Assembly: GCA_951799405.1 (NCBI GenBank)
Contig: OX637332.1
Location: 19,721,001-19,785,000, forward strand
Length of the DNA stretch: 64,000 nt
DNA from: Agapetus fuscipes
Lineage: Eukaryota; Arthropoda; Insecta; Trichoptera; Glossosomatidae
Reading direction: 5' to 3'
In this document: one piece after another, positions 7,099-62,330 of the stretch
Numbering within the stretch: position 1 is the stretch's first letter
Layout: each line of letters begins with the position of its first letter
Notes under the pieces: model-generated
What the model was told of the DNA's origin: nothing
The model's database searches: none
What the model saw: the letters and a program-made list of their open reading frames with translations, nothing else
Made by a program: the position numbers and the translations under genes

Positions 7099-7464
7099 CA
7101 GATCTCGAGTAAGATTTTAGGAGTGTTTTGGATCTGGTGCCCCCTTCCTTGCGGATGTAGGCGACTACTGTCGTGTTGTCTGATTGTACCAGAATTTCGG
7201 AGCCGGAAAGGTCGTGCGCTGTGCGTTGCAGGGTTGCAAAAACAGCGAACAACTCTTTTCGGTTGGAGTGCTACTTCTTTTGTTGAACGGTCCACTGTCC
7301 TGACAGCATCAAGTCGTCCAGAGTTGCTCCCCAAGCTAAGTCTGACGCATCTGTTGTCAAGAAATGTCCGAAGGTTTCCCTGTGGATGGAACTTGATTCG
7401 TTCGCATTCCCTATCCACCACTCTATTTCTTGTAAGCTGTCCTCGGTCATTTGTATGGACCCTC

Positions 7465-8022
7465 TTGGTGACAGGTGCTTCAGTGGCTTGCTCGCTATCT
7501 GCAATTGTCTGCAGTGGAGGCGACCATGAAGCTGGCAAAGTTTAGTCTTCCTAGGAGACTTTCCGCCAGTTTTAAGGACCATTTTCGAGAAGTCAGTATT
7601 GCTCGAAGTGAGTGGCACAATGCCTCTTGCTTCCGGTAAGAAAGACCTACTTGGTGACAGGTGCTTCAGTGGCCTGCTCGCTATCTGCAATTGTCTGCAG
7701 TGGAGGCGACCATGAAGCTGGCAAAGTTTAGTCTTCCTAGGAGACTTTCCGCCAGTTTTAAGGACCATTTTCGAGAAGTCAGTATTGCTCGAAGTGAGTG
7801 GCACAATGCCTCTTGCTTCCGGTAAGAAAGACCTACTTGGTGACAGGTGCTTCAGTGGCCTGCTCGCTATCTGCAATTGTCTGCAGTGGAGGCGACCATG
7901 AAGCTGGCAAAGTTTAGTCTTCCTGGGAGACTTTCCGCCAGTTTTAAGGACCATTTTCGAGAAGTCAGTATTGCTCGAAGTGAGTGGCACAATGCCTCCT
8001 GCTTCCGGTAAGAAAGGAATTT
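7465..8022 (-). repeat. three tandem 186 bp units inside DIRS pol
   Basis: Units 7465-7650, 7651-7836 and 7837-8022 are nearly identical. 186 is a multiple of three (62 codons), so a frame across them stays open. The unit spans the RT/RNase H junction, including the LHCRQLQIAS stretch. Confidence 0.9.
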
Positions 8023-8572
8023 GCAATTGTTGTGCGTGTCCCAAACGATTCCCAAGTACTCTAATTGTTGAGTGGGGAAGAGCACTGACTTCTGGAGATT
8101 TACATACCACCCCAGAGATTGTAGGATATCTACTGCTAGATGCAATTGCCGACAAAGATCGTCCTTGGATTGGCTCGCAAGGAGGAAGTCGTCGAGATAA
8201 ACGATTGTCCGAATACCTCGTCGCCTCAGTAGTTGGGCTACCCAATTTGTAAGGGTTGCAAACATTCTGGGGGCAGATGAAAGGCCAAAGGGCAGACTTG
8301 TCATCTGAAGTAATTCTCCTCGATAGACCAGTCGCAAAAATCTCCAATGTTTCTGTGCACTTGGGAGATGAAAGAAGGCTTGCGATAGGTCTATTTTCGA
8401 CAACCAATTGTTTGGCTGCAGAAACTCTGGCACTTTGTAGTGACTATGAGTTTGAACGGAACCGGGTCCAGGAAGAAGTTTAACGATTTCAGGTTGAAAA
8501 TCATTCTCGAGGAACGGTCCGATTTGGGTGTTAGGAACATTTTTGATAAGAAGCTGGGAGATTGTTATGTTA

Positions 8573-34150: not shown

Positions 34151-35475
34151 GGCTCAGTTTAGACACACGAAATTTTTTTGAATAAGTTTCGATAGTGACG
34201 TCAAGCAAGATGGCCGCTCCGAAGTGACAGATGCTGGCAATTTTGATATTATGATGATTTTTAAATAATGCAACATGACCCGCTTATTTCGTAATGTTGG
34301 TCAGACTGAGTTGTCAGACATTTCCACCACTTCGAAGTTAAAATGTCACGAGACGTTCGCGCCAGTAGGCTCTTGGCTGGGGAACCGGAAATACATGAAT
34401 GGTGGTAAATTTAAATTGGCTGCAAGGCGGTAAATTTAAATTGGGTGCAGTTTGAAAATATTATTCTGAATATTCAAATCATGATATTATACAGCCGTTA
34501 TTATAATGGCGGTAAATTTAAATTTGTGGCAGTTTGAAAATATAAATCTTAGTATTAAAATTATGTTATTAGGTATTATTGCAAAAATGTCTTTCAAAAT
34601 TAAATTAAATTAAAATTTATTTTCACTAAATTTTGTATTTTTAGTTAGGCTTTTGGCTGGGGAACCGGAAATATATAAATGGTGGTAAATTTAAATTGGC
34701 TGCAGTTTGAAAATATTAATCTGAGTATTACAATCATGTTATTATATAGCCTTTATTATAATGGCAGCAAATTTAAATTTGTGGCAGTTTGAAAATATAA
34801 ATCTTAGTATTAAAATTATGACATTAGGTATTATTGCAAAAATGTCTTTAAAATTTTAAATTAAATTGATTTTTATTGGTAATAGATATAGTATTTTTTT
34901 AGCTATTAAATATATATCACTATTGTGAGTAAATGGATGTGTGTGTGAGTTTCTGCAATCTATTTATTGTAAAGGTAAATGTGCACAACTATTTTTACCT
35001 ATTTGTATCTTATTTATTACTTTACTTATTTTTTTGAGTGAAACTAATTTTATTATTTTAGAATCTTGGTATCTTTTAATGTCAACATGTAATTGGAGCA
35101 ATACGTAATTTTTTGTATTTTCATATTTTTTTATATTCTGAAGTATCCTATTTATTATTGTATTGTTCTAAATAAATAAATGAAAATGTGATTATATGGC
35201 CCATATATAACGGCGGCAAATTTAAATTCAAAATATAAATCAGTTATCTTTAAATTTTAGTATTATAATCCCGTGATTCAATAGCCCTTATTTTAAAAGT
35301 TAAACTTAAGCGTGTCGTATTTTTAATTAATATTAATTTTACAAGTGTATGTGGTCACTGTCATAATATTGTTTGTTAGGTGCGTGCAGTTTTTTTTGTT
35401 TTGAGTGTCAGCCGCTGAGCTTGAGATAATATATAATAATTTGTTTGTTAACTGGAATCTTTGACAAGGAGGAAA

Positions 35476-35607
35476 ATATTATTTGCGTGGAGTCAGGAGT
35501 GTAATACAAAATTTACCTTAAAAAAGAATCTCTATGCCCACAAACGAAGTAAGCACGACAAGGATCCAGTTGCACATAAACCTAAAACGATAAAAAAAAG
35601 TGTTTAA
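35476..35607 (+). pseudogene. C2H2 zinc-finger remnant inside the MULE-like element
   Basis: Reads CNTKFTLKKNLYAHKRSKH followed by a basic tail to a TAA, matching the second half of a C2H2 finger (C, F, L, H-x4-H). The first Cys of the pair is lost, perhaps by a nearby frameshift. May be a captured host exon or the DNA-binding remnant of a transposase. Confidence 0.45.
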
Positions 35608-35720
35608 GATATGTGGAGTACATTTCGCGAAGATGGCAAATTATTATCGTCATGTAAATATGTACTTATCATGGAACACCGGCTACCAAGAGGAATAATA
35701 GAATTATACGTTCGTTTGAC

Positions 35721-35935
35721 ATTTTGACAATTAGGTATATTAATTTTTTTAAAACTGAAAATTTTAAAACTTAATTTGAATCGGATATTTACGAATCGTT
35801 TGGTGAGAACTTACATTATTCTCTACGTTTCGTCAGCGACGTCGCCGTCGCTGACGAAAACGGTTCGTAAATATCCGATTCAAATTAAGTTTTAAAATTT
35901 TCAGTTTTAAAAAAAATTAATATAATTGTCAAAAT
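35721..35935. repeat. foldback hairpin, ~75 bp arms
   Basis: ATTTTGACAATT...CGGATATTTACGAA and its reverse complement surround a second short palindrome (GTCAGCGACG...CGTCGCTGAC). It shares a core with the foldback at 53250-53378. Confidence 0.75.
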
Positions 35936-36909
35936 AATAGAATTGTTTGTCCGATTGAACTTTGCGACGTGTCTTTTTTTAATTATCAATCCCTGAGAAT
36001 TCATTTGACAGAAAAACACAATATAGAGTTGGAGTTGAACAAGTTAAAGTTTCAATGTTTTTCAGGTACTTGAAATTTTATACAAATACTTGTCTTAGAA
36101 TGTTTTCTTATATATTGTACAAAATCAAACAAATAACTACAGTGCCCATTCTTACAAACCAGTAAGAAAATATGAAATTTAGTATTACACTCCTCTGAAA
36201 TGTTTTTCTACAAGTCACCAACTGAATTAAATAATTCAATAGGTACGCAAACATTACACTTATATCATGTTTTTGTGTAAAGTGAGGTAAGGATAAACTT
36301 GTCAATTATTTATGTCACTTTCCCAAAGTTTTGTGCTCTTAATTGTGTGCTTAGATAATAGATATAAAATGTTACGATTCACAAGATTTTCATAATTAAA
36401 TTTGAAAGACATTTTTGCAATAATACCTAATAACATAATTTTAATACTAAGATTTATACTTTCAAACTGTCAAAAATTTAAATTTACCGCCATTATAATA
36501 ACGGCTATATAATATCATGATTTGAATACTCAGAATAATATTTTCAAACTGCAGCCAATTTAAATTTACCGCCTTGCAGCCAATTTAAATTTACCACCAT
36601 TTATGTATTTCCGGTTCCCCAGCCAAGAGCCTACTGGCGCGAACGTCTCGTAAAATGTCTGAAAAGTCAAAGACAATAATGCTATGGACTCGACAATTTT
36701 GGTAGGTATTTTAAATTTTTTCGTTAATTTAAAACTCGAAAACCTTTATTTTCTGAGAAAACTAAAAACAATTTGGAAAATATAAAATAATTGTTAACCC
36801 CTTGAAAAGAAAAAGGAAGTAGGTAATAATTAAATTGAGTTTGTTCTTACTTTTGGATTTAAAACAATTTTATTTCACAACGCTGTTTTTTCCATTGCAA
36901 CGTTTTAAT

Positions 36910-40739: not shown

Positions 40740-40950
40740 AAAATATAAGTTGCAATGAAATATAAACATTCAAAACTAATATGAAATGCATGCCCACAAA
40801 CAGGTACGTGTAAGTTCGCGCTTACGAATGCTGAATTTGTACTTACAAATTAAAACCAAATCTCAAATGAACATAAAACCTGCAACTCTTGCCGACCTTC
40901 CTTGAAACAGGGGTGACATTAACAAAGTGAATTATTTTTTACACTTTGGG
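40740..40950 (-). repeat. R1 repeat
   Basis: Tail ATAAGTTGCAATG, core GACATTAACAAAGTGAA; the head is replaced by LINE sequence. Confidence 0.75.
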
Positions 40951-40989
40951 AGGACTGAGAAATGCGAGAAAATTGAGATAAGACTGAAT

Positions 40990-42009: not shown

Positions 42010-42290
42010 TTTTATATTTAAATGTAATTTATTATTCATATTCCTTGACTTATAGGTTGGTATGAGGCTGACCACCCATACTGTAAAAAATGGTTCACTT
42101 TGCCAATGTCACCCCTGTTTCAGGGAAGGTCGGCAAAAGTTGTGGGGCTTATGTTCATTTGAGGTTTGGATTTTATTTGTAAGTACACATTCAGCATTTG
42201 TAAGCGCGAACTACACTTGTTGGTTTGTGGGAATACATCTGAGAGCTTTAAATGAATATATCCTTGCAACTTAGATTATAGATTATTATA
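42010..42290 (+). repeat. R1 repeat, young subtype
   Basis: Near-identical twin of 19466-19745, just outside the Gypsy element 1 LTR. Confidence 0.85.
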
Positions 42291-42334
42291 GATTTCAAAA
42301 AAAATATCGGTACTTTTGATATATCAATATATAT

Positions 42335-42808
42335 TGTTACGAAATTAGGGTTCAATTGTCTTCAAATTAAAAATACACAGGTCTTCTTCAATAGTTATTT
42401 ATTTTACACAGTTACAAAATTTATTTTCACACTACTTTCTCGATTATTCCACTTGGTTTTGGTTCACTGATCAGATGACTTCGATGTGTTTGTAAGTCTC
42501 TATGATACTGGCCCGCTCTGCAGGCCATTCGCACCTTTATACTCTGTAGAGCAGTATGATCTAGAACCAAAGTTGCTAGACGGTTCCAGAGTAATTATTA
42601 CTTCTCGACGCTTCACGTACTACCTAGAGATACAACCAAAATCCTACCTACAAATGTAATACAGAATTCCTATAATTATAACAAGTACCTACTTAGCCTA
42701 GAGAATTCTACACTTATACACAATTATCGATCCTACCTACCTATACCTATGAGGACTCTTATAACTATAACTACCCATACTTATTTCAATATTTATATTT
42801 ACATAACA
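42335..42808 (-). repeat. 3' LTR of Gypsy element 1
   Basis: 474 bp partner of 49036-49509. It starts directly after the pol stop codon. Confidence 0.95.
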
Positions 42809-42820
42809 CTACCCCCCACC
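42809..42820 (-). other. polypurine tract of Gypsy element 1
   Basis: Minus strand reads GGTGGGGGGTAG immediately before TGTTATG of the 3' LTR. It also encodes the last Gly residues and the TAG stop of pol. Confidence 0.8.
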
Positions 42821-45800
42821 TAGACTGTTTCGTCCCGGAACAGTCTTGACTCTGTGTAGGTAGGGGCATGCTGATCCACGTCGACACCCTGTGGTCAGGA
42901 AGAAGTGACAGTACACGGATTTCTCCCCACTGGCTCTCGGCTGCGCTTGCTCGCAGCACACCATGACGCTGATGCCGACTCCCGAGAACACTGCTTCAAT
43001 CATACTCCGGATTATCCGCCAGTCTCGATTAGCGCGGCCGCCACCCATCTTCGGTATTGCCAGACGCGCCTGCTGATCCTCCAACATGTAGTCACGCAGC
43101 TCAACAAGGCCGTCCCACAATGCCTTGTAGTCCTCTTCCAGGTTGCTGGAATCCGGGACAACCAGGCAGTATGCTTGTTGACGCCCCTTCGGTAGTCTCA
43201 GAGCTCTTCCTTGCGGGCTGCTCGAGGGTTGCGGTTCTCCGAATTTGTATCGGAAGACCCGTGCAATTCCTCTAGACATATCTAGATCTTCCGGTACACT
43301 GCATGCCAGTGTGTGGTCCCCAGTGACCTCAAATAAGTCCTTGTGGACTTCTGTGGTCACTCCATGGCGAAACTTCTGCCCTGCCTTCGCGTTCTCCCAA
43401 AACGTCTCAAAGGCTGGTGATCTTTCGGATGCGACGCACTGTCGTACTTTTTGGGCTGGTTGGTCATCATTATCGCCTAGGTATGGTGAGAGGCGATTGT
43501 AGTGCACGACCCTTGGTTTTCCGTTTGGTCTCTTTTTTATGCGGTAGACCACATCGTTGATGCGCTCCAAGATCTCGTACGGCCCGTCCCAGGAACGCTG
43601 AAGTTTCGGACAGTATCCTTGGCGCCTCTTGGGGTCAAAAAGCCACACCCAGTCACCAGCTTTGTACCCCATGCTGTCAGCTCTGGTGTCATAGCGCTCC
43701 TTCATTTGATCGCTGGCTTCCCCGATGTTCATGCGGACCTGATCATGGATGTCATCCAGCCTCCTGCGAAGGTCTGTCACATAGTCTTCTCCGGCTAGGT
43801 CTTCACCTGGTTTGCAGCCAAATTTGAGATCACAAGGAAGTCGCATTTCTCGCCCAAACAGTATGCTGCTGGGAGTCTTCTTCGTCGTTTCCTGAACAGC
43901 CGACCGGTAAGCCAATAAGAACAAAGGCAGATGTCGGTCCCAGTCCCGCTGATGGCTGGACACTACTTTGGCTAAGTACCTCCCCACGGTACGGTTCATC
44001 CTTTCCACCATTCCATCAGACTGTGGATGTAGCGCAGTGGTCCTGGTCTTGTAGATCCCTAGCCGCTCACACATTTGCTGGAAGATAGCAGCTTCAAAGT
44101 TCCTTCCCTGATCAGAATGTAATTCCAGGGGTACGCCAAACCTGCTGATAAATTCGGTAACTAGAACTTCAGTCACGGTTACGGCCTCTTGGTTAGGGAT
44201 TGAGTAAGCTTCCACCCACTTGCTGAAGTAATCCATCACCACCATGATGTACTTGTTACCCTTCTCAGTTGTAGGAAATGGGCCAGCTATGTCGATGGCA
44301 ATTCTTTCAAAGGGGCTGCCAACATTGTACTGACGCATTGGTGCTCGCCTTTTCCTTTGCGGTCCATTGGCCGTTGCACAGGTTACACATTTTCGACACC
44401 AATCTTTGACGTCTTCGCTGCAGTTGATCCAGTAAAATCGCTCTTTCACTTTCTCCAGCGTCTTCTTAACGCCTAGATGTCCTCCAGAAGTTCCTCCATG
44501 CAGCAGTCCAAGGATTTCCGGTACTCGGCTCCTCGGAACGAGGGTTTGCTTTCTTCTAAGTGTGCCGTCTTCCTTCTCGATCTTTCGTTTCAGAAACCCT
44601 CCTTCTATCACTATGGATCCCCATTGAGCCCAATAAGCCTTGACAGTTGGTGATAAGGGGGCGAGTTTTTCCCAGGTTGGCCTTTCTCCTTCTCGCGCCC
44701 ATTCCATCACATACTTCAAGTCCGGATCATTCAGTTGGTCTTGCGCCAATTTTTCATCTTGCCAGTCCTCATCTTCGGTGGTCGTCCTTTGGACAATTGC
44801 TACCTTGTCCTCCATCTTGCTGCAATGTTTGCAGTCACTGGCGCATGGTCGTCTGGATAATGCATCCGCATTTCGATGAAGCGTGCCAGGTCTATGTTCG
44901 GAGTCATAATCATACTCCTGGAGCCTTTCAATCCATCTAGCCACTTGCCCTTCTGGGTTTTTGAATTTCAGAAGCCAAACCAGTGCAGCATGATCAGTCC
45001 GTAGTGTGAATTTTCTTCCGTACAAGTATTTGCGGAAGTGTTCCACTGATTTTATCACGGCAAGAAGCTCTCGTCTGGTCACGCAATAATTTCGTTCTGG
45101 CTTGGAAAGCACTTTACTGAAGTAACCCAGAACAGTCTCATGCCCATCCTGTATTTGGGAAAGGACGCCTCCTATCCCCACATTACTAGCGTCGGTATCC
45201 AGGATGAACTTTCCATCTTTTCGTGGGTAGCTCAAGATGGGGGCACTTGTTAATCTTCCCTTAAGCTCTTCAAATGCTTGTGCGCAGGAATCACTCCAAT
45301 GGAAGCGAGTGTTTTCTTCCGTAAGCTTGGTGAGCGGTTTTGCAATGTCCGCAAATCTTGGCACAAACCTCCTGTAATAAGTGCACAGCCCCAGGAAACT
45401 CCTAGTTTCATGTTTGTCCTTCAGCACGGGCCAGTCTCTTACTGCCTTGATTTTGGCAGGGTCAACTTCAACTCCACGTTGAGAAACTATGTGTCCCAGG
45501 TAATTTACTTGTTTCTTGAACAGGTTACACTTTTTCGGGTTGAGCTTCAGTCCAGCGTCTTGTAGTCGCCCGAAAACTTGCTCCAGATTTCTCAACTGAT
45601 GGTTGAAGTCCTTTCCCAGGATGATTATGTCATCCAAGTATACCAGGCAGGTTTCCCATGATAGTCCTCGCAGCACATTCTCCATCAGCCTTTCAAACGT
45701 GGCGGGGGCATTGCATAAGCCAAATGGCATCACGGTGAACTGCCAAAGTCCAGATCCAGTCGAGAATGCAGTTTTCTCCTTATCTTTGGCATCCAATTCA

Positions 45801-47071
45801 ACTTGCCAGTAGCCACTTTTCAGGTCCAATGTGGAAAAAATGGTGCATCCTGCCAATGTGTCCAAGGTGTCGTCAATCCTTGGCAGAGGGTAACTATCCT
45901 TTTTCGTAACATCGTTGAGCAGTCTGTAGTCCACACAAAATCTCGTGGTACCATCCTTCTTTTTCACCAGTACCACCGGGGATGTCCAAGGGCTACTTGA
46001 TGGTTCTATGATGCCATCCTTGCTCATGTCTTTGATGATCTTGTCAGCTTCTTCCCGCTTTGCAAAGGGTAGTCTTCTTGGAGCCTGTTTTATTAGTCTC
46101 GCTTCTCCGGTGTCTATGCTATGTCGCACTACCTTGGTTCTTCCCAGACGGCCATTAGAGTCCTCGAAAATGTTCTGGTAGCGGCAGATCAAACTCCTCA
46201 CTCTCCGTTTGTTTTCCTCGGTTAGACCTTGGGAAGCGTCGTGAACCAGGGCTTCCAATTGTGTTGACAATTTGTTTCCTTCGCATGACATGTTTGTCAT
46301 CTGTTGCACAATGGAAGTTATCCTCTCACATCTGCCCAAAACAAAACCTTCATTCATTTTAACTGGGTAGCTGTTCACATTCATGATCTTGACAGGAATG
46401 GTCTCCTTTGCGCGAATCACTGTTCTTGCCACCATGACTCCTTTGTTAACATTGTCCATGTTCTCCGGTTCTATCATACAGATTTGGTCATTTGTACTAC
46501 TGGAATCCAGGCGGGCACTCACTATCATCTCGGATCGCCCCTTCACTTCGGTATTCTTGGCTAGGATAACACGTGCAGACAGTTCTTTCCGTCTTTGCAG
46601 GATGACTTCTTCATTTCCAATTTTAATGGACACTTTCTTTAAATTTAAACTGCACCCAAATCTGTCCAGTATGTCCATTCCCAATATAACGTCTTCTTCA
46701 ATGTTGGCCACCAACGTCCGATGATCAAAAGTGGTGCTGCCAATTTGGAAGGTGGCAATCGTCTCCCCATACACCTGTGCTGACTCTCCCGTGGCGGTGT
46801 GCAGAGACCACTTTGTTGGTGCAATCTGCTTACCTCGTGCCACTATGTCGCGTCTCAGAATTGTCCTGGTTGCTCCCGTGTCCACCAGTAGTTCACGAGT
46901 TACTCCATCTATTATGCCATTGATAAAAATGCTGCTGGCTTTTCCTCTCACGGTTGCGACAGTAGCAGCAGATTTCAGGGCCTCTCCAGCGTGGGTCAAC
47001 GGTTGCCCCTTCCCATTAACCCTTTCTAGTTTTCCGCAGCCTGTTTTCTGGGTTTCTGAGGCTTGGGACAC
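42809..47071 (-). CDS. pol: Pol polyprotein of Gypsy element 1 with C-terminal macro domain and CCCH finger
   Basis: 1420 codons open from the first Met in frame; real translation probably comes from -1 frameshifting out of gag. Aspartic protease LLVDTGAT (Asp64). RT ~340-530 with YLDD at 478-481. RNase H ~610-745 (DTDAS at 625). Integrase zinc domain H858/H865/C895/C898 and core D927, D987, E1023 (D,D35E). GPY/F-like WDGPYEIL at 1161. After this come residues ~1237-1373, a TARG1/OARD1-like macro domain: KDLFEV, then SVPEDLDMSRGIA, then FRYKFG, then AIPKMGGGRANRDW, then MIEAVF. A CCCH finger (C1388-x7-C1396-x5-C1402-x3-H1406) follows. The stop abuts the LTR. The positions that correspond in human TARG1 to its catalytic Lys and Asp appear not to be conserved, so ADP-ribose binding is a safer guess than hydrolysis. 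Confidence 0.93.
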   Translation of the reverse strand: MSQASETQKTGCGKLERVNGKGQPLTHAGEALKSAATVATVRGKASSIFINGIIDGVTRELLVDTGATRTILRRDIVARGKQIAPTKWSLHTATGESAQVYGETIATFQIGSTTFDHRTLVANIEEDVILGMDILDRFGCSLNLKKVSIKIGNEEVILQRRKELSARVILAKNTEVKGRSEMIVSARLDSSSTNDQICMIEPENMDNVNKGVMVARTVIRAKETIPVKIMNVNSYPVKMNEGFVLGRCERITSIVQQMTNMSCEGNKLSTQLEALVHDASQGLTEENKRRVRSLICRYQNIFEDSNGRLGRTKVVRHSIDTGEARLIKQAPRRLPFAKREEADKIIKDMSKDGIIEPSSSPWTSPVVLVKKKDGTTRFCVDYRLLNDVTKKDSYPLPRIDDTLDTLAGCTIFSTLDLKSGYWQVELDAKDKEKTAFSTGSGLWQFTVMPFGLCNAPATFERLMENVLRGLSWETCLVYLDDIIILGKDFNHQLRNLEQVFGRLQDAGLKLNPKKCNLFKKQVNYLGHIVSQRGVEVDPAKIKAVRDWPVLKDKHETRSFLGLCTYYRRFVPRFADIAKPLTKLTEENTRFHWSDSCAQAFEELKGRLTSAPILSYPRKDGKFILDTDASNVGIGGVLSQIQDGHETVLGYFSKVLSKPERNYCVTRRELLAVIKSVEHFRKYLYGRKFTLRTDHAALVWLLKFKNPEGQVARWIERLQEYDYDSEHRPGTLHRNADALSRRPCASDCKHCSKMEDKVAIVQRTTTEDEDWQDEKLAQDQLNDPDLKYVMEWAREGERPTWEKLAPLSPTVKAYWAQWGSIVIEGGFLKRKIEKEDGTLRRKQTLVPRSRVPEILGLLHGGTSGGHLGVKKTLEKVKERFYWINCSEDVKDWCRKCVTCATANGPQRKRRAPMRQYNVGSPFERIAIDIAGPFPTTEKGNKYIMVVMDYFSKWVEAYSIPNQEAVTVTEVLVTEFISRFGVPLELHSDQGRNFEAAIFQQMCERLGIYKTRTTALHPQSDGMVERMNRTVGRYLAKVVSSHQRDWDRHLPLFLLAYRSAVQETTKKTPSSILFGREMRLPCDLKFGCKPGEDLAGEDYVTDLRRRLDDIHDQVRMNIGEASDQMKERYDTRADSMGYKAGDWVWLFDPKRRQGYCPKLQRSWDGPYEILERINDVVYRIKKRPNGKPRVVHYNRLSPYLGDNDDQPAQKVRQCVASERSPAFETFWENAKAGQKFRHGVTTEVHKDLFEVTGDHTLACSVPEDLDMSRGIARVFRYKFGEPQPSSSPQGRALRLPKGRQQAYCLVVPDSSNLEEDYKALWDGLVELRDYMLEDQQARLAIPKMGGGRANRDWRIIRSMIEAVFSGVGISVMVCCEQAQPRASGEKSVYCHFFLTTGCRRGSACPYLHRVKTVPGRNSLGGG

Positions 47072-48369
47072 TTGGTGCTAAGGTGGCCCAGCTGTCCGCA
47101 GTTCCAGCAGCGTGGGTCTCGTCTTCGAGGTCTCAGACGTTCCAGCACTTTTTCAATTAGCTCCTCGGTTGTAGGTAGCTTGACCTCCTCTGCCTCGACT
47201 GCACGAACCCTGGCGTGGCCCCTGATGGACTGTTTGACAGCCTCAAACTCGAGAGCTTGGCTGAGCGCCTCGTTCAAAGCCTTGGGATGGGCCAGTTTTA
47301 CGGCTTGTTGCGTCTCCCATTCCCGCAATCCATTTAGGAACTTGTCCACTGCCAAGCTCTCACAGATGTCGTCGGAGGCTGTCGGGTAAGCGTCTCGTAC
47401 CAGGCGGGCGATGTCCATTTCAAACTCCTGGAGGCTCTCGTTGGGCTTCTGCACCCTTGTGTTCAGCTGCGACTTGTACAGCTGCTCCAGGCACTTGTGG
47501 CCATAGCGCATATCCAAGCGCTGCTTCAGCTGCCCAAAGTCACCACGGTTGTCCAGGGGTATGGCCTGCAGAACCCTGAGAGCGTCTCCTCGGAGCGACA
47601 GGCTGAGAACCGAAGCCTTCTTCTGCTGGCTCCAGGCTCCCATCATGGCAGCCGTCTCAAAGAGGGTCAAGTATTCCTCCCACGACGTCTTCCCGTCGAA
47701 GGTTGGGAGGTTGTGCTTTGCTAGGGAAGGGTCATCATCCCCTCTTGTGACCCTGGTTGGAGTTGAGCATCCCTGGTCGGTCTCGTCGTGAAGGCCGCCT
47801 TTGGGGGAGATTCTGGTGGACTCCATCTGGCACTTGTCAGCCAGCTCGGCACGCAGACGGTCTTCCAGGTTTGACATCCGAGTCTCCATTTCCCCCTTCA
47901 GGGCCGAGAGGTTGGTTGTCATCTTCTCCTCTATTTCTCCTTTCAGGGTTGTGAGACTATCCGCTATCTCCGCCTTCAGGGTCCTGGCGTTGTCAGCCAT
48001 CTCCGCCTTCAGGTCTTCCCTCAGGGTCTTGGAATTATCAGCCATTTTCTCCTCCAGGGTCCTGGCGTTGTCAGCCATCTTCTCCTCCAGGGTCTTGGCG
48101 TTGTCAGCCATCTTCTCCTCCATGGCAGTGAAGTTTCCCGTGAGCTCCTCCTTCATGGATTTTGTGATGCTGATGTTCAGCTCCTCAAGGGCGCGGTCTC
48201 CTCCAGATGCCATGACAAAGTATGCCGGGTCTTCACCTGACCGTTCCAAGGCCTCTATGATGCGTGCTTGTAAGGCTGCCTTTCCTCCTGAGGTCTCCAG
48301 GTCCCTCTCCAGAAGCTCATTTTTAAGCTCAGTGACTTTGAGGTCCTTGACGTTCACTTTCGTTGCCAT
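47026..48369 (-). CDS. gag: Gag polyprotein of Gypsy element 1
   Basis: 447 codons. Residues ~8-45 look like a SAP helix-extension-helix (KVTELKNELLERDL...SGGKAAL). Residues ~75-175 are a coiled coil made of 11-residue repeats of the EKMADNAKTLE type. Residues ~215-400 look like the Gypsy capsid region (LPTFDGK, WEEY, FL.GL). A single CCHC knuckle CWNCGQLGHLSTKC sits at 421-434, followed by a basic tail. Known role: particle assembly and RNA packaging. The end overlaps pol, which is in the -1 frame. The ATG at 48369 has no in-frame upstream ATG in the leader's last stretch, and the equivalent start in element 2 is conserved. Confidence 0.92.
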   Translation of the reverse strand: MATKVNVKDLKVTELKNELLERDLETSGGKAALQARIIEALERSGEDPAYFVMASGGDRALEELNISITKSMKEELTGNFTAMEEKMADNAKTLEEKMADNARTLEEKMADNSKTLREDLKAEMADNARTLKAEIADSLTTLKGEIEEKMTTNLSALKGEMETRMSNLEDRLRAELADKCQMESTRISPKGGLHDETDQGCSTPTRVTRGDDDPSLAKHNLPTFDGKTSWEEYLTLFETAAMMGAWSQQKKASVLSLSLRGDALRVLQAIPLDNRGDFGQLKQRLDMRYGHKCLEQLYKSQLNTRVQKPNESLQEFEMDIARLVRDAYPTASDDICESLAVDKFLNGLREWETQQAVKLAHPKALNEALSQALEFEAVKQSIRGHARVRAVEAEEVKLPTTEELIEKVLERLRPRRRDPRCWNCGQLGHLSTKCPKPQKPRKQAAEN

Positions 48370-49015
48370 TTTTTTTTCAAAATTTACGTCAAAACAAAAA
48401 TATTTTCAAATTTATTTAATACAAGTTTTGAGTTTTATATATATAGCTGTTTTGAATACGTACTTTAGCAAAAATAATAATTTATCTGATTACACTGATT
48501 GGTAGGTACTGTCTTTTAATATTTATTTTTAATTCACCAATATTTTTTTACATAATAATGTCTGATAGTACATAATTATTTATTTCGTCTCAAGTCTTTC
48601 AAACACACAGGTAGGTACTTAATGTACATTCACACACTTGTAAACAAAGGATAGTTATTCAAAAACTTTTTCTCGATGAATCTGGAACGTTCTTTTGTAA
48701 TATTTTTCAAGATTTTTATTTATTTATTTTATTTTTTTAATCACACACAATAATAAAAAAAACTATGGTCCAATTTGATGACTTTCTTAATGCGGTAAAA
48801 TAGTCATTATGTTATGTCCAGAATTATGTTCCATATGATGTTCCAGAATTTATAAGCAACTTGCTTTTGCGTCTTTTCTTTTAACAAAAATTTATTTAAA
48901 CACTTGTTTTCACAAAAGTCAGTTCACACAAAGTTCAATTTGAATAAAGTTCATTTTAACACTATTTAATTTATTTTATTTATTTTTAGACAGAAGATCT
49001 TAATTTTTCTTGACA

Positions 49016-49033
49016 ATTCCGCACCTGACGCCA
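49016..49033 (-). other. primer-binding-site candidate of Gypsy element 1
   Basis: Two bases inside the 5' LTR the minus strand reads TGGCGTCAGGTGCGGAA, beginning with the TGG that pairs with a tRNA CCA end. The second copy has TGGTGTCAGGTGCGG at the same place. The tRNA is not identified. Confidence 0.6.
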
Positions 49034-49035
49034 AT

Positions 49036-49509
49036 TGTTACGAAATTAGGGTTCAATTGTCTTCAAATTAAAAATACACAGGTCTTCTTCAATAGTTATT
49101 TATTTTACACAGTTACAAAATTTATTTTCACACTACTTTCTCGATTATTCCACTTGGTTTTGGTTCACTGATCAGATGACTTCGATGTGTTTGTAAGTCT
49201 CTATGATACTGGCCCGCTCTGCAGGCCATTCGCACCTTTATACTCTGTAGAGCAGTATGATCTAGAACCAAAGTTGCTAGACGGTTCCAGAGTAATTATT
49301 ACTTCTCGACGCTTCACGTACTACCTAGAGATACAACCAAAATCCTACCTACAAATGTAATACAGAATTCCTATAATTATAACAAGTACCTACTTAGCCT
49401 AGAGAATTCTACACTTATACACAATTATCGATCCTACCTACCTATACCTATGAGGACTCTTATAACTATAACTACCCATACTTATTTCAATATTTATATT
49501 TACATAACA
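49036..49509 (-). repeat. 5' LTR of Gypsy element 1
   Basis: 474 bp, TGTTATG...CGTAACA when read on the minus strand. Identical to 42335-42808 over the whole length as compared by eye. Confidence 0.95.
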
Positions 49510-49610
49510 ATATTTTGCCTATCTCTAGGCGTGTGGCCGGCCGCCATTTGTATTCACGAGGACCGCTCGCTTTGTCAATTTCTTAAATTTTTGTTATTTT
49601 GCGTTTTATA

Positions 49611-51968: not shown

Positions 51969-52446
51969 TGTTATGTAAATGTAAATATTGAAATAAGTAT
52001 GGGTAGTTATAGTTATAAGAATCCTCATAAGTATTGGTGGGTAAGATCGATAATTGTGTTATAAGTGTAGAATTCTCTAGGCTAAGTAGGTATTTGTTAT
52101 AATTATAGGAATTCTGTCTTGCATTGTGTGGGCAGGAATCATAGAATAAAATACGTGCAGCATCGAGAAATAATAATTACTATGTCTTTCTGGAATTGTC
52201 TAGCAACTATAGGATCTAGACTATACTGCTTTAGAGAGTATAAAAGGGTGCAATTGGCCTGCAGGGCCAGCAGTATCATACGAGACTTACAAACACATAG
52301 ACCTAACTTGAGCAGTGAACAGAAACCCAGTGGAATAGTCGAGAAACCTTTGTAAAAATAAATTTTGTAAAAGTGTAAAATAAATAACTGTATAAGAAGA
52401 CCTGTGCATTTTAATTTGAAAGACTTTTGAACCCAATTTCGTAACA
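51969..52446 (+). repeat. 5' LTR of Gypsy element 2
   Basis: 478 bp, TGTTATG...CGTAACA. About two substitutions relative to 60558-61035. The PBS-like TGGTGTCAGGTGCGG follows two bases downstream. Confidence 0.95.
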
Positions 52447-52968
52447 ATTGGTGTCAGGTGCGGAATTTTCAAAAAAAAATTAGGATCTTCTGTCCTCTAA
52501 AAATAAATGAAATTTTGATAAAATAAACTTTATTCAAATTGAACTTTGTGTGAACTGATTAAAACAAGTGGTTAAATTAAATATAAAAAAATAGTGGTTA
52601 AATTAAAGAAAAACGCAAAAGTAAGTTCAAAAATTCTGGAACATCCTAAAAAAAAAAAAATTGTAATTTTATCGTGTTGAGAAAGTCACCAAATTGGACC
52701 ATATTTTTTTTTTATTGTGTGTGATTAAAAATAAAATAAATAAATAAAAATCTTGAAAAATATTGCGAAAGAACGTTCCAGATTCATCAGGAAAAAGTTT
52801 CTGGACAACTGTATTTTTTTATTGCATGTGTGTGCGTGTAGATTAGACTACCTACTTACCTGTGTGTTTGAGAGACTTGAGACGAAATAAAGAATTATGT
52901 ACTATCAGACATTATTATGTTAAAAATATTGGTGATTTAAAAATAAATATTAAAAGGCGGTACCTACC

Positions 52969-54281
52969 AGGGGCGATCATAGGAATTAAGACCTAGTTCG
53001 GCAACTTCTAGGTTTTGGGTGGTTTTCGACAGAACAAGATTATTTTTTGTGCGCAACTCCAAAACAATAAAAATCCGATTTTTTTCATATTCCATACAGC
53101 CAGTGGCATTTACAATTTAATTAAACCAAAAACGAAAAACCGATTTTTCCAGGGAAACCTGTCGGAACAAAATTTGAAATAGCAATTATCTGAAAACAAT
53201 GTTAAGAAACATATAACATAGTCCCTTCATGTATAAAACTGAAATAATATTTACAATAATTACAGGTAGGTTTTTCTATCGGATATTTCACGAACTGTTA
53301 TAAGAGAATAATGTAAGTTGTCTTATGACGGTTCGTGTAATATCCGTTAAAAAAACTGTGTAGTTATAATTATTGTAAACATGTAAAACGACCGTAATTC
53401 CAACCTGAACCTAAAAATGAAATAATATTGCATTAGTTGTCTTAAATAAATAACCACCGTGGTTTTTTCTTGCTGTTTCAGACGGACCTTTAAAGTATCT
53501 ATGAAACTCTTACCTTAGTCATTGTAGAATCTCTAGCATTATGTAGTTGTTCTTGTCCCACGACACTTACAAATAAATAATGAAAAGCTTAGTGGAAGCC
53601 GCCTGAGCCACATCAAATATCAGAGTAAATGATTGATTATAATAAGACAAGTCAATAACTCGATACTTGAAGTGGCCTTAAGAAATGCCGTTTTTCTCAA
53701 TTCTTCCAAACACACACAGTATCTAAGGCATAAAACCACTGACTTAATGATGTTATCAGTTATCCATTGTAATAATTAAGTTTCACAATAAATCACAAAA
53801 ACAATCACAGACGTCAAAAACAACGCGCGCGGGCTTGGAAGAAATTGGAGAATGAACAAAAAGTTAAAACTCACACACTTCTTTTCTGCATCTCTTTCAT
53901 ATATATCACCAGTTTATTTCTGTCTCTACTCTACTATGACGTAAGTGCGTTCCCAATTATGATTGTCTTTTGACCCAGGCAAGCCTGAGTTGAAGCGTAC
54001 AGACGGTGGCCACATGTGGATGTATGAGTGCAATTTGGTTTAAATGTATTGCCGCGCTGGAACCGAGCTACAGTTTAAAATCTCGTTGCCGGACTGCGCT
54101 GAGCGTATTGCATGCGTGAAAACGGTAGGCGCTAACTTACAAATGTCTAATTCGGGGCTACGAAAATTGCCTATCTTTTAGGCGTCGATTAATATTTAAA
54201 ATTATTGTTTCAAAAATATTTTTTCTTTTCTAAAAAGTAAGTTCGGCGAGGACTAATGGTCTTTATGATATGCACGCCACT
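52969..54281 (+). mobile_element. 1.31 kb non-autonomous TIR transposon inside Gypsy element 2 leader
   Basis: The leader aligns to that of element 1 on both sides, so this segment is extra. It is bounded by GGTACCTACC on both sides (52959-52968 and 54282-54291). Ends read AGGGGCGATCATAGG and, reversed, AGTGGCGTGCATATC, an imperfect inverted repeat. A 9-10 bp target duplication fits a MULE-like transposase. No long ORF. It contains a foldback hairpin at about 53250-53378. Strand is arbitrary. Confidence 0.75.
53250..53378. repeat. foldback hairpin inside the 52969-54281 transposon
   Basis: TTACAATAATTA...GGATATTTCACGAAC pairs with GGTTCGTGTAATATCC...TAATTATTGTAA. The loop holds GAGAATAATGTAAG, also found inverted in the foldback at 35721-35935. 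Confidence 0.7.
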
Positions 54282-54436
54282 GGTACCTACCTACCGTTAA
54301 GTGTAATCAGATAAATTATTATTTTGCTACAGTACATGTTAAAACCGCTATATATATAAAACTCCAAACTCTTATTAAATAAATTTAAAAATATTTTTGT
54401 TTTGAAGTAAATTTAAATTTTTGTTAAAATAAAAAA

Positions 54437-55763
54437 ATGGCTAAAGTGAACATCAAGGACCTCAAAGTCACTGAGCTTAAGAATGAGCTTCTGGAGAGGG
54501 ACCTGGAGACCTCAGGAGGGAAGGCGGCCTTACAGGCACGCCTCATGGAGGCCTTGGAACAGTCAGGCGAAGACCCCGGCATATTTTGTCATGGCGTCTG
54601 GAGGGGACCGCGCCTTGGACGAGCTAAATATCAGCATCACCGGAAACTTTACTTCTATGGAGGAAAAGATGACAGGACTGAAGACTGAGATGGCTGACAA
54701 CGTCAAGACCCTGGAAGAGAAGATGGCTGACAACGCCATAACTCTGAGGGAAGACCTGAAGGCGGAGATGACTAGCAACATGACGGACCTGAAGGTGGAG
54801 ATGGCTGAAAACGCCAAGACCTTGGAGGAGAAGGTGTCCCGAAACCTCACAACCCTGAAGGGAGAAATGGAGGAGAAGATGTCAACCCTGAAGCGGGAAA
54901 TGGAGACTCGGATGTCAAACCTGGAGGACCGTCTGCGTGCCGAGCTGGCTGACAAGTGCCAGATGGAGTCCACCAGAATATCCCCCAAAGGCGGCCTTCA
55001 CGACGAGACCGACCAGGGATGCTCAACTCCAGCCAGGGTCACTAGAGGGGATGATGACCCTTCGCTGGCGAAGCACAACCTCCCAACCTTCGACGGGAAG
55101 ACGTCGTGGGAGGAATACTTGACCCTCTTTGAGACGGCTGCCATGATGGGAGCCTGGAGCCAGCAGAAGAAGGCTTCGGTTCTCAGCCTGTCGCTCCGAG
55201 GAGACGCTCTCAGGGCTCTGCAGGCCATACCCCTGGACAACCGTGGCGACTTTGGGCAGCTGAAACAGCGCTTGGATATGCGCTATGGCCACAAGTGCCT
55301 GGAGCAGCTGTACAAGTCGCAGCTGAACACAAGGGTGCAGAAGCCCAACGAGAGCCTCCAGGAGTTTGAGATGGACATCGCCCGCCTGGTACGAGACGCT
55401 TACCCGACAGCCTCCGACGACATCTGTGAGAGCTTGGCAGTGGACAAGTTCCTAAATGGATTGCGGGAATGGGAGACGCAACAAGCAGTAAAACTGGCCC
55501 ATCCCAAGGCTTTGAACGAGGCGCTCAGCCAAGCTCTCGAGTTTGAGGCTGTCAAACAGTCCATCAGGGGCCATGCCAGGGTTCGCGCAGTTGAGGCAGA
55601 GGAGGTCAAGCTACCCACAACCGAGGAAATAATCGAAAAGGTACTAGAACGTCTGAGACCTCGAAGACGAGACCCACGCTGCTGGAACTGCGGACAGCTG
55701 GGACACCTTAGCACCAAGTGTCCAAAGCCTCAGAAACCCAGAAAACAGGCTGCGGAAAACTAG
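54437..55763 (+). pseudogene. gag: gag of Gypsy element 2, frameshifted
   Basis: Starts with the same SAP-like N-terminus (MAKVNIKDLKVTEL) as the intact copy. An extra C in a CCCC run at 54574-54577 shifts the frame; the intact copy has CCC. Beyond that the frame is open to the CCHC knuckle (CWNCGQLGHLSTKC) and the stop at 55763. The coiled coil has a different number and wording of 11-residue repeats than the intact copy. pol overlaps the end in the -1 frame, as in element 1. Confidence 0.9.
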
Positions 55764-58700
55764 AAAGGGTTAATGGGAAGGGGCAACCGTTGACCCGCGC
55801 TGGAGAGGCCCTGAAATCTGCTGCTACTGTCGCAACCGTGAAAGGAAAAGCCAGCAGCATTTTTATCAATGGCATAATAGATGGAGTAACTCGTGAACTA
55901 CTGGTGGACACGGGAGCAACCAGGACAATTCTGAGACGCGACATAGTGGCACGAGGCAAACAGATTGCACCAACAAAGTGGTCTCTGCACACCGCCACGG
56001 GAGAGTCAGCACAGGTGTATGGGGAGACGATTGCCACCTTCCAAATTGGCAGTACCACTTTTGATCATCGGACATTGGTGGCCAACATTGAAGAAGATGT
56101 TATATTGGGAATGGACATACTGGACAGTTTTGGGTGCAGCCTGAATTTAAAAAAAGGTGCCATTAAAATTGAAAATGAATAAGTCATCCTGCAAAGACGG
56201 ACGAAACTGGCTGCACGTGTTATCCTAGCAAAGAATACCGAAGTGAAGGGGCGATCTGAAATGATAGTGAGTGCGCGCCTGGATTCCAGTAGTATAAATG
56301 ACCAAATCTGTATGATAGAACCAGAGAACATGGACAATGTTAACAAAGGAGTCATGGTGGCAAGAACAGTGATTCGCGCACAGGAGACCATTCCTTTCAA
56401 GATCATGAATGTGAACAGCTACCCAGTTAAAATGAATGAAGGTTTTGTTTTGGGCAGATGTGAGAGGATAACTTCCATTGTGCAACAGATGACAAACATG
56501 TCATGCGAAGGAAGAAAATTGTCAACACAATTGGAAACCCTGGTCCACGACGCTTCCCAAGGTCTAACCGAGGAAAACAAACGGAGAGTGAGGAGTTTGA
56601 TCTGCCGCTACCAGAACATTTTCGAGGACTCTAATGGCCGTCTGGGAAGAACCAAGGTAGTGCGATATAGCATAGACACTGGAGAAGCAAGACCAATAAA
56701 ACAGGCTCCAAGAAGACTACCCTTTGCAAAGCGGGAAGAAGCTGGCAAGATCATCAAAGACATGAGCAAGGATGGCATCATAGAACCATCAAGTAGCCCT
56801 TGGACATCCCCGGTGGTACTGGTGAAAAAAAAGGATGGTACCACGAGATTTTGTGTGGACTACAGACTGCTCAACGATGTTACGAAAAAGGATAGTTACC
56901 CTCTGCCAAGGATTGACGACACCTTGGATACATTGGCAGGATGCACCATTTTTTCCACATTGGACCTGAAAAGTGGCTACTGGCAAGTTGAATTGGATGC
57001 CAAAGATAAGGAGAAAACTGCATTCTCGACTGGATCTGGACTTTGGCAGTTCACCGTGATGCCATTTGGCTTATGCAATGCCCCCGCCACGTTTGAAAGG
57101 CTGATGGAGAATGTGCTGCGAGGACTGTCATGGGAAACCTGCCTTGTATACTTGGATGACATCATTATCTTGGGAAAGGACTTCAACCATCAGTTGAGAA
57201 ATCTGGAGCAAGTTTTCGGGCGACTACAAGACGCTTTACTGAAGCTCAACCCGAAGAAGTGTAACCTGTTCAAGAAACAAGTAAATTACCTAGGACACAT
57301 AGTTTCTCAACGTGGAGTTGAGGTTGACCCTGCCAAAATCAAGGCAGTAAGAGACTGGCCCGTGCTGAAGGACAAACATGAAACTAGGAGTTTCCTGGGG
57401 CTGTGCACTTATTACAGGAGGTTTGTGCCAAGATTTGCGGACATTGCAAAACCGCTCACCAAGCTTACGGAAGAAAATACTCGCTTCCACTGGAGTGATT
57501 CCTGTGCACAAGCATTTGAAGAGCTTAAGGGAAGATTAACAAGTGCCCCAATCTTGAGCTACCCACGAAAAGATGGAAAGTTCATCCTGGATACCGACGC
57601 TAGTAATGTGGGGATAGGAGGTGTCCTTTCCCAAATACAGGATGGGCATGAGACTGTTCTGGGTTACTTCAGTAAAGTGCTTTCCAAGCCAGAACGAAAT
57701 TATTGCGTGACCAGACGAGAGCTTCTTGCCGTGATAAAATCAGTGGAACACTTCCGCAAATACTTGTACGGGAGAAAATTCACACTACGGACTGATCATG
57801 CTGCACTGGTTTGGCTTCTGAAATTCAAAAATCCAGAAGGGCAAGTGGCTAGATGGATTGAAAGGCTCCAGGAGTATGATTATGACTCCGAACATAGACC
57901 TGGCATGCTTCATCGAAATGCGGATGCATTATCCAGACGACCATGCGCCGGTGACTGCAAACATTGCAGCAGGATGGAGGACAAGGTAGCAATTGTCCAA
58001 AGGACGACCACTGAAGATGAGGACTGGCAAGATGAGAAATTGGCGCGAGACCAACTGAATGATCCAGACTTGAAGTATGTGATGGAATGGGTGCGAGAAG
58101 AAGAAAGGCCAACCTGGGAAAAACTCGCCCCCTTATCACCAACTGTCAAGGCTTATTGGGCTCAATGGGGATCCATAGTGATAGAAGGAGGGCTTCTGAA
58201 ACGAAAGATCGAGAAGGAAGATGGCACACTTAGAAGGAAGCAAACCCTCGTACCGAGGAGCCGAGTACCGGAAATCCTTGGACTGCTGCATGGAGGAACT
58301 TCTGGAGGACATCTAGGCGTTAAGAAGACGCTGGAGAAAGTGAAAGAGCGATTTTACTGGATCAACTGCAGCGAGGACGTCAAAGATTGGTGCCGAAAAT
58401 GTGTAACCTGTGCATCGGCCAATGGACCGCAAAGGAAAAAGCGAGCACCAATGCGTCAGTACAATGTTGGCAGCCCCTTTGAAAGAATTGCCATCGACAT
58501 AGCTGGCCCATTCCCTGCAACTGAGAAGGGTAACAAGTACATCATAGTGGTGATGGATTACTTCAGCAAGTGGGTGGAAGCTTACTCAATCCCTAACCAA
58601 GAGGCCGTAACCGTGACTGAAGTTCTAGTTACCGAATTTATCAGCAGGTTTGGCGTACCCCTGGAATTACATTCTGATCAGGGAAGGCTAGGGATGTGAG

Positions 58701-60557
58701 CGGCTAGGGATCTACAAGACCAGGACCACTGCGCTTCATCCGCAGTCTGATGGAATGGTGGAAAGGATGAACCGTACCGTGGGGAGGTACTTAGCCAAAG
58801 TAGTGTCTAGCCATCAGCGGGACTGGGACCGACACCTTCCTTTGTTCTTATTGGCTTACCGGTCGGTTGTTCAGGAAACGACGAAGAAAACTCCCAGCAG
58901 CATACTGTTTGGGCGAGAAATGCGACTTCCTTGTGATCTCAAATTTGGCCGCAAACCAGGTGAAGACCTAGCCGGAGAAGACTATGTGACAGACCTTCGC
59001 AGGAGGCTGGATGACATCCATGATCAGGTCCGCATGAACATCGGGGAAGCCAGCGATCAAATGAAGGAGCGCTATGACACCAGAGCTGACAACATGGGGT
59101 ACAAAGCTGGTGACTGGGTGTGGCTTTTTGACCCCAAGAGGCGCCAAGGATACTGTCCTAAACTTCAGCGTTCCTGGGACGGGCCGTACGAGATCTTGGA
59201 GCGCATCAACGATGTGGTCTACCGCATAAAGAAGAGACCAAACGGAAAACCAAGGATCGTGCACTACAATAGGGTATTTGCAATAGTGAGGAATATGATA
59301 AAAAGTATATTATTTTGATAGATTTCGAAAAATCTAATAATAATATGTTGATTTGAAGCCGAAAATATTTTTTTTCGATTTTATATTTAAAAAAGAAAAT
59401 ATAGGTTTTTGGATAAGTTTTTAAACGGATGTGAGATCTGCTTCTTGTATTTCGGGTAATGTGACGTCATATGTTGACGTCACGTTCTTTTATTGACATT
59501 CCATACTCTGTTAACTTGTGTTGTTGACAACAGAAACAAGTGAAAACAACAAAAACAAATGATATGTTCTTAAAGAAACACACAAACTTCTTGAAAAAAC
59601 ACATCCGCAATGGTGTAAACATGAAAAAGCGATGCTTGAATGACATTAATGTGAGGGCTGTCAGTTGATACGGCGATGTTTACAAGACCGTGACGTCACG
59701 CGAGAAAATTTCATCTAGTAGCGTTTTGGCGCGAAAATTCAAAGATCGATTTTAAAATGCTTATAACTTTGCTAAAAATACAACTAAAATTAGAATTCAA
59801 GAAGTTTTGGGCTAATAACGCATAAAAGAATTTAAATCACAAAAAAAAGAAAAATGTGAAAATACCCTATCGCCTCTCACCATACCTAGGCGATAATGAT
59901 GACGAACCAGCCCAAAAAGTACGACAGTGCGTCGCATCCGGAAGATCACCAGCCTTTGAGACGTTTTGGGAGAACGCGAATGCGGGACAGAAGTTTCGCC
60001 ATGGAGTGACCACAGAAGTCCAGAAGGACTTATTTGAGGTCACTCGGGACCACACGCTGGCATGCAGTGTACCGGAAGATCTGGATATGTCTAGAGGAAT
60101 TGCACGGGTCTTCCGATACAAGTTCGGAGAACCGCAATCCTCGAGCCGTCAGCAAGGAAGAGCTCTGAGACTACCGAAGGGGCGTCAACAAGCATACTGC
60201 CTGGTTGTCCCGGATTCCAACAACCTGGAAGATGACTACAAGGCTTTGTGGGACGGCCTTGTTGAGCTGCGTGACTACATGCTGGAGGATCAGCAGGCGC
60301 GTCTGGCAATACCGAAGATGGGTGGCGGCCGCGCTAATCGAGACTGGTGGATAATCCGGAGTATGATTGAAGCAGTGTTCTCGGGAGTCGGCATCAGCGT
60401 CATGGTGTACTGCGAGCAAGCGCAGCTGAGAGCCAGTGGGGAGAAATCCGTGGACTGCCACTTCTTCCGGACCACAGGGTGTCGACGTGGATCAGCATGC
60501 CCATACCAACACAGAGTCAAGACTGTTCCGGGACGAAACAGTCTAGGTGGGGGGTAG
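55718..60557 (+). pseudogene. pol: pol of Gypsy element 2, with macro domain and CCCH finger still open
   Basis: Protease part 55718-56182 ends at a TAA where the intact copy has Glu. RT, RNase H and the start of integrase are open at 56243-58699. At 58687-58693 about 30 nt of the integrase core is replaced by 7 nt that copy the neighbouring CTAGGGA, destroying the region after the second catalytic Asp. Integrase resumes at 58755. A 598 bp MITE splits the frame at 59271-59868. The C-terminal part from 59876 is open: macro-like domain at 60003-60413 and CCCH finger at 60456-60512. The protein differs from element 1 at roughly 16 of 229 positions there, few of them in the macro core. Confidence 0.92.
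59271..59868 (+). mobile_element. 598 bp MITE (AGGGTATTT ends) inside Gypsy element 2 pol
   Basis: Inserted between integrase and the macro domain. The empty site is visible in element 1 (CACTACAATCGCCTC). Ends AGGGTATTTGC and GAAAATACCCT, flanked by AT on both sides. Same length as, and over 98% like, 36910-37507. Confidence 0.9.
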
Positions 60558-61035
60558 TGTTATGTAAATATAAATATTGAAATAAGTATGGGTAGTTATA
60601 GTTATAAGAATCCTCATAAGTATTGGTGGGTAAGATCGATAATTGTGTTATAAGTGTAGAATTCTCTAGGCTAAGTAGGTATTTGTTATAATTATAGGAA
60701 TTCTGTCTTGCATTGTGTGGGTAGGAATCATAGAATAAAATACGTGCAGCATCGAGAAATAATAATTACTATGTCTTTCTGGAATTGTCTAGCAACTATA
60801 GGATCTAGACTATACTGCTTTAGAGAGTATAAAAGGGTGCAATTGGCCTGCAGGGCCAGCAGTATCATACGAGACTTACAAACACATAGACCTAACTTGA
60901 GCAGTGAACAGAAACCCAGTGGAATAGTCGAGAAACCTTTGTAAAAATAAATTTTGTAAAAGTGTAAAATAAATAACTGTATAAGAAGACCTGTGCATTT
61001 TAATTTGAAAGACTTTTGAACCCAATTTCGTAACA
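60558..61035 (+). repeat. 3' LTR of Gypsy element 2
   Basis: 478 bp, preceded directly by the purine tract GGTGGGGGGTAG that also holds the pol stop codon. Confidence 0.95.
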
Positions 61036-62114: not shown

Positions 62115-62330
62115 CTAAATCTAAATTGGATATGTACCATTTAAGATTCATATTAAACAAATTCCCACAAGCAGACATGTACCATTTCGCGCTAACACAT
62201 GCCGCATGTGGACCTACAATCTAAAAACCCAATCTCAAGTGAACATAAGCCCTGCAACTCTTGCCGACCTTCCCTGAAACAGAGGTGACATTGGCAAAGT
62301 GAACCATTTTTTACACTATGGGTGATACAT
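62115..62330 (-). repeat. R1 repeat
   Basis: Tail TCTAAATCTAAATTGG, CATTCCC-type 3' block, core GACATTGGCAAAGTGAACC. Confidence 0.82.

Follow-up and report, generated by a model that had tools for sequence, protein, structure and literature searches.

What is the domain that prolongs the integrase of a Ty3/Gypsy retrotransposon in Agapetus fuscipes (Trichoptera), and what could it do for the element? The element is found twice, as copy 1 and as a damaged copy 2, in a stretch of 64,000 nucleotides (GenBank assembly GCA_951799405.1, contig OX637332.1, positions 19,721,001 to 19,785,000), hereafter the window. An earlier note made from the letters alone had described, in copy 1, a macro domain and a CCCH zinc finger following the integrase, and this tail is confirmed to be real. 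We consider it rather probable that a TARG1/OARD1-type macro domain, mostly accompanied by a CCCH finger, was captured, most likely once, by one Ty3/Gypsy clade as a C-terminal extension of the integrase. It would be an ADP-ribosylhydrolase in most members and, in the window copy, a binder or scaffold or a decaying domain.

Identity and spread of the Pol tail

The tail of copy 1 matches human TARG1 (terminal ADP-ribose protein glycohydrolase, C6orf130) at E 3.9e-10 in a phmmer search of PDB sequences, and a profile built from ten relatives scores 119.9 bits on the window macro domain, the best of 2000 letter shuffles reaching 4.8. Because of this TARG1 match and of a profile score far above the shuffles, the macro match is real and not due to chance. 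Comparison of an AF2 model with Foldseek and VIA-align showed that the window copy has the alpha/beta macro topology, and 24 macros of the family share 29-47% identity with human TARG1 (median 41%). The Pfam Macro model gives no listing for the window tail at E<=1; at the same threshold it matches all ten relatives (alignment A2), with a best E-value of 1.1e-6, the first of them scoring 17.3 bits, below the cut-off of 22. Such sub-cut-off scores may be a reason why tails of this kind go unlabelled. The motifs quoted in the earlier note were all recovered in the Pol open reading frame (ORF), on the minus strand, which it had not specified. Its TARG1-like macro domain stands, with borders refined to residues 1240-1371; its broader TARG1/OARD1/Poa1 grouping holds for TARG1, and Poa1 did not prove to be the closest solved macro structure.

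Relatives were retrieved with the RNase H-integrase-tail piece as query, the 7979 candidates sharing most words being scored; 120 of the 4496 matches were listed. Among these 120, 24 carry the macro domain (macro profile, E 5.9e-29 or better; P0017 is incomplete), a lower bound for the number of carriers, and the other 96 reach E 0.44 or worse with the same profile. Queries using the tail alone had suggested a lone oddity (no match of tail words at E<=1e-3 in Pol-length proteins, and P0002 as the only tail-only match), a view abandoned in light of these relatives; these scant results are explained by the limits of the word filter.

In a tree of the integrase core with 118 rows (P0028-P0030 were left out, their coverage being under 85%), the carriers that could be placed fall in a single clade of 25 rows with a Shimodaira-Hasegawa-like approximate likelihood-ratio support of 100. 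This clade comprises 21 full-tail rows, the window included, together with P0017, P0024, P0026 and P0027, and the tail is absent from P0032, the next row outside it (fork support 90). In the macro tree, the 24 macros from elements constitute a single clade (support 99), the comparison set being TARG1-like domains from human, bacteria (22) and viral contigs (80); human TARG1, the sole animal sequence in a tree with few columns for its rows, lies outside. Over 21 rows, the integrase and macro trees share 9 of 18 splits, compared with a maximum of 4 in 2000 shuffles of the labels. Collectively, alignments and trees support that one clade acquired the tail and largely retained it, the simplest history being probably one gain, co-descent and some losses. 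The fold prediction and the search for the same fusion in other Gypsy Pol proteins, both suggested by the earlier note, came out in its favour.

The C-x7/8-C-x5-C-x3-H spacing is present in the window copy and in 18 of the 26 rows with a complete macro domain. The exact form read by the earlier note, C-x7-C-x5-C-x3-H, was found in none of the 96 listed relatives lacking the macro domain. The CCCH assignment of the window tail is weaker than the macro assignment: its score on PF00642, 19.4 bits (E 0.001), lies just under the cut-off of 20.5, and that on PF18345 is 20.4 against 29. The rows without the spacing are P0006, P0015, P0018, P0021, P0022 and P0023, which form one group in both trees, P0020, and P0028, whose record ends there. 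The macro domain is kept more widely than the CCCH spacing and is therefore the more constant part of the tail.

Stretches of viral contigs (87) and bacterial loci (22, Bacillota for the most part) also contained TARG1-like macro domains (L001-L102). The viral-contig loci, 80 of the 87 being kept for the macro tree, were found with the profile of the relatives; the window tail as query gave no confirmed match in viral contigs. Among phage records, tblastn with the window tail returned 287 at E<=1, the best one with 29% identity and E 2e-8; these are distant macro domains, and none spans 80% of the query. Hosts named for carriers are the beetle Callosobruchus maculatus (P0028, P0030) and the fungus Erysiphe pulchra (P0021, P0029); our guess is that the fungal labels may reflect contamination. 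In P0029 (1132 aa), the Pol tail is succeeded by a Gag-like stretch bearing a CCHC knuckle, for which tandem elements, splicing or misassembly are possible explanations.

Active site and possible function

Residue roles in TARG1 have been described: D20 serves adenine, the GxG motif the phosphates, and S35, T83 and D125 the distal ribose, K84 being the nucleophile, with TKx(30,35)Px[IL]GxGxD as signature (PMC6397177). Over the 26 complete macros (three from the window lineage; P0017 was excluded, as its record ends early), D20 is kept in all 26, T83, K84 and D125 in 21 each, G123 in 23 and G121 in 18. K84 and D125 occur together in 20 of the 26 and the full TARG1 pattern in 15. Since most of the members examined have an intact catalytic pair, the tail is predicted to be an ADP-ribosylhydrolase. 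The window lineage (P0001-P0003) has P35, V83, P84 and A125, the pair being changed by K84->P and D125->A; its window copy retains the fold, the adenine-binding D20 and the phosphate-loop GxG. The nearest relative, P0004 (67% over an 834-aa piece), has both K84 and D125 and has lost G121, and the loss of the pair is therefore specific to the branch of the window. Elsewhere, K84 is missing from P0014, D125 from P0016 and both from P0019.

In catalytic members, the tail would remove ADP-ribose that host transferases have attached to element proteins, to the ends of cDNA or RNA, or to chromatin where the element integrates, and the CCCH finger would perhaps anchor it on RNA. The window element would descend from such members and have since lost the catalytic Lys and Asp, its tail either binding ADP-ribose or serving as a scaffold at best, or decaying. 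TARG1 is reported to strip ADP-ribose from protein, double-stranded DNA ends and single-stranded RNA ends (PMC11088682), and also to remove thymidine ADP-ribose in DNA (PMC8501950). A bolder version, which we regard as tentative and on balance doubtful, is that the lineage uses its integrase-borne TARG1-class enzyme to clean cDNA/RNA ends or host proteins and so evade a host ADP-ribosylation defence, catalytic loss marking a switch to an integration-guiding reader. The earlier note had likewise proposed blunting of such a defence or steering of integration, an interpretation that is supported in part. Should the activity prove real, ADP-ribosylation must restrain or shape retrotransposition in these hosts strongly enough for an eraser to be selected, an idea made testable by the natural variation among members, in which the catalytic pair and the CCCH finger may each be present or absent.

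Several observations weigh against the capture of a hydrolase kept by most of the clade. At least one catalytic residue is gone in 6 of the 26 rows, three of these being the window lineage, and the rows are not independent (P0013 is close to P0029, and P0028 to P0030). S35, a pocket residue of TARG1, is kept in only 5 of the 26, the TARG1 loop MGAGIA is mostly MSRGIA-like in the family, and the CCCH spacing is missing in eight rows, one through the early end of its record. Inside the integrase clade, no macro domain is detectable in P0024, P0026 and P0027, presumably through tail loss or frameshift; the first and last of these stop soon after the integrase p58 module. As to the defence, one study reports that LINE-1 is restricted in human cells by ZAP/PARP13, a PARP-family CCCH protein, that PARP1 overexpression did not inhibit LINE-1 and that the PARP domain of ZAP is defective (PMC4441479). 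Since this domain is defective and PARP1 was without effect, ZAP is only a loose parallel to the tail, and support for PARP-based restriction of retroelements is thin.

The main rival is a tail that reads ADP-ribose instead of erasing it: remaining on the integrase, it would tether the pre-integration complex to ADP-ribosylated chromatin or breaks, hydrolysis being secondary. Chromodomains tether chromovirus integrases and offer a model. The position of the tail directly after the p58 module fits such a role, as does the window lineage, which is devoid of the catalytic residues yet keeps the fold, and so do the losses in P0014, P0016 and P0019. However, a pure reader would have no need for the catalytic pair found in 20 of the 26 members, and we judge it unlikely. 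A chance chimera, in which a single insertion reads into a host OARD1-like gene, would agree with TARG1 being a host protein in animals, as stated in PMC6397177; it is refuted by the relatives and deserves practically no credence, the fusion being common to 24 of the 120 listed relatives, both window copies and P0002, and the tail frame ending at the long terminal repeat (LTR) in both copies.

For the window lineage in particular, the tail could be a decaying passenger without function, which we hold to be a serious possibility, short of an even chance. Both catalytic residues are gone, and the window macro branch is long (1.25, against 0.49 in P0004; integrase branches, 0.26 and 0.16). Moreover, purifying selection on the tail is not detectable between copies 1 and 2, which also counts against a maintained activity: the tail shows 16 amino-acid changes, for a neutral expectation of 18.6 (16% of 2000 simulations as low), and its macro part 9, for an expectation of 10.6 (26% of 2000), whereas reverse transcriptase-integrase has 17 against 32.7 (none of 2000). 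Ratios of nonsynonymous to synonymous substitution rates were 0.48 for the tail, 0.44 for the macro part, 0.18 for reverse transcriptase-integrase and 0.34 for Gag with NG86, and 0.54, 0.42, 0.30 and 0.30, respectively, with YN00. The selection test is weak, given few changes and a damaged copy 2, and decay is further opposed by a frame that is open in copy 1, copy 2 and P0002 and by the retention of D20, GxG and the CCCH ligands. At the scale of the family, conservation is deep; in the window lineage, recent constraint on the tail is not detectable, on small numbers and with one copy damaged.

The two copies and their surroundings

Copy 1 is a Ty3/Gypsy LTR retrotransposon, with an LTR pair, Gag, and a Pol ordered as protease, reverse transcriptase, RNase H and integrase (Table 1). 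Its LTRs, aligned by blastn over 42333-42811 and 49034-49512, show one mismatch in 479 bases, and a 4-bp ATAT duplication stands on either side of the element (~42335-49509, minus strand). The Gag and Pol ORFs share 46 nt, with Pol in the -1 frame relative to Gag, and the TAG stop of Pol directly abuts the 3' LTR. The SAP domain at the start of Gag (48244-48351, minus; Pfam E 4.5e-8) is a nucleic-acid or chromatin module that is likewise uncommon.

Table 1. Features of the two element copies (window coordinates)
Feature	Position	Strand	Basis
3' LTR, copy 1 (TGTTATG..CGTAACA)	42335..42808	-	blastn of both ends; ends read in sequence
Polypurine-tract-like G-rich stretch GGTGGGGGG, doubling as codons of the last Pol residues	42812..42820	-	read in sequence
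Pol ORF, copy 1, 1420 aa: protease, reverse transcriptase, RNase H, integrase, p58 module, macro/CCCH tail	42809..47071	-	Pfam on five pieces
CCCH zinc finger C-x7-C-x5-C-x3-H, Pol residues 1388-1406	42854..42910	-	motif reading, Pfam
TARG1-type macro domain, Pol residues 1240-1371, catalytic residues replaced	42959..43354	-	phmmer, profile, structure comparison
Integrase p58 C-terminal module (PF22938)	43484..43585	-	Pfam E 4.5e-13
Gag ORF, copy 1, 447 aa: N-terminal SAP domain, Retrotrans_gag, CCHC knuckle	47026..48369	-	ORF list, Pfam
Primer-binding-site-like stretch, TGG start, 2 nt past 5' LTR	49014..49033	-	read in sequence
5' LTR, copy 1	49036..49509	-	blastn of both ends; ends read in sequence
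5' LTR, copy 2 (damaged copy)	51969..52446	+	blastn; GTAT flanks
Gag ORF, copy 2; SAP part upstream, in another frame	54483..55763	+	ORF/domain scans
Pol pieces, copy 2 (two ORFs)	56243..59318	+	ORF/domain scans
Macro + CCCH tail, copy 2, open frame	59856..60557	+	sequence comparison with copy 1
3' LTR, copy 2	60558..61035	+	blastn

Copy 2 (51969-61035, plus strand) has LTRs differing at 3 of 482 positions and GTAT on both sides. Its tail, identical to that of copy 1 at 212 of 228 residues, matches TARG1 at E 7.1e-12, and between it and the remainder of Pol lie ~600 nt (59271-59868) with no counterpart in copy 1; a leader stretch of ~1.3 kb (52970-54287, plus) likewise has none. The third member of the lineage, P0002, comes from a 996-base contig (227 of 232 residues identical).

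Elsewhere in the window, a MITE-like (miniature inverted-repeat transposable element) inverted repeat has arms at 40813-40953 and 42072-42212 (87%), and 42073-42234 recurs inverted at 62161-62324 (84.8%). Another inverted repeat of 261 nt (96%) spans 34343-36656, with 1.8 kb and direct repeats between its arms. Broken-up ORFs at 5614-8433 (minus), one with RVT_1 (E 4.3e-18), are probably another damaged reverse-transcriptase element.

Comparison with known systems

We know of no retrotransposon with its own ADP-ribosylation enzyme on Pol. In the accessible portions of the open-access PMC literature, Repbase and subscription papers being outside this scope, no publication naming a macro-integrase fusion was found; one candidate, PMC11642819, concerns an aphid RNA virus. 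The nearest precedent is that of the macro-domain ORFs in fish endogenous retroviruses, credited to Basta et al. 2009 (PMC4977317). These teleost epsilon-like endogenous retroviruses are likewise retroelements with an acquired macro domain; unlike the present tail, theirs are additional ORFs and not a Ty3/Gypsy integrase extension.

The element domain resembles TARG1/OARD1/C6orf130 in fold, in sequence and, in 20 of the 26 rows, in K84 and D125. It differs by being fused to the integrase of a retrotransposon, in most cases together with a CCCH finger, by a changed loop 1 and, in the window copy, by the absence of both catalytic residues. The chromovirus chromodomain, which has another fold and another ligand, is also a reader-type domain at the C-terminus of a Ty3/Gypsy integrase. 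Alphavirus and rubella macrodomains, which are ADP-ribosylation antagonists, provide structural matches to the tail and another macro fold within a replicating element; they belong to another macro subgroup, with 11-18% identity among the matches listed. The macrodomain of the DarG antitoxin is the second-best subfamily by both sequence and Foldseek, with clearly lower scores and a bacterial toxin-antitoxin context.
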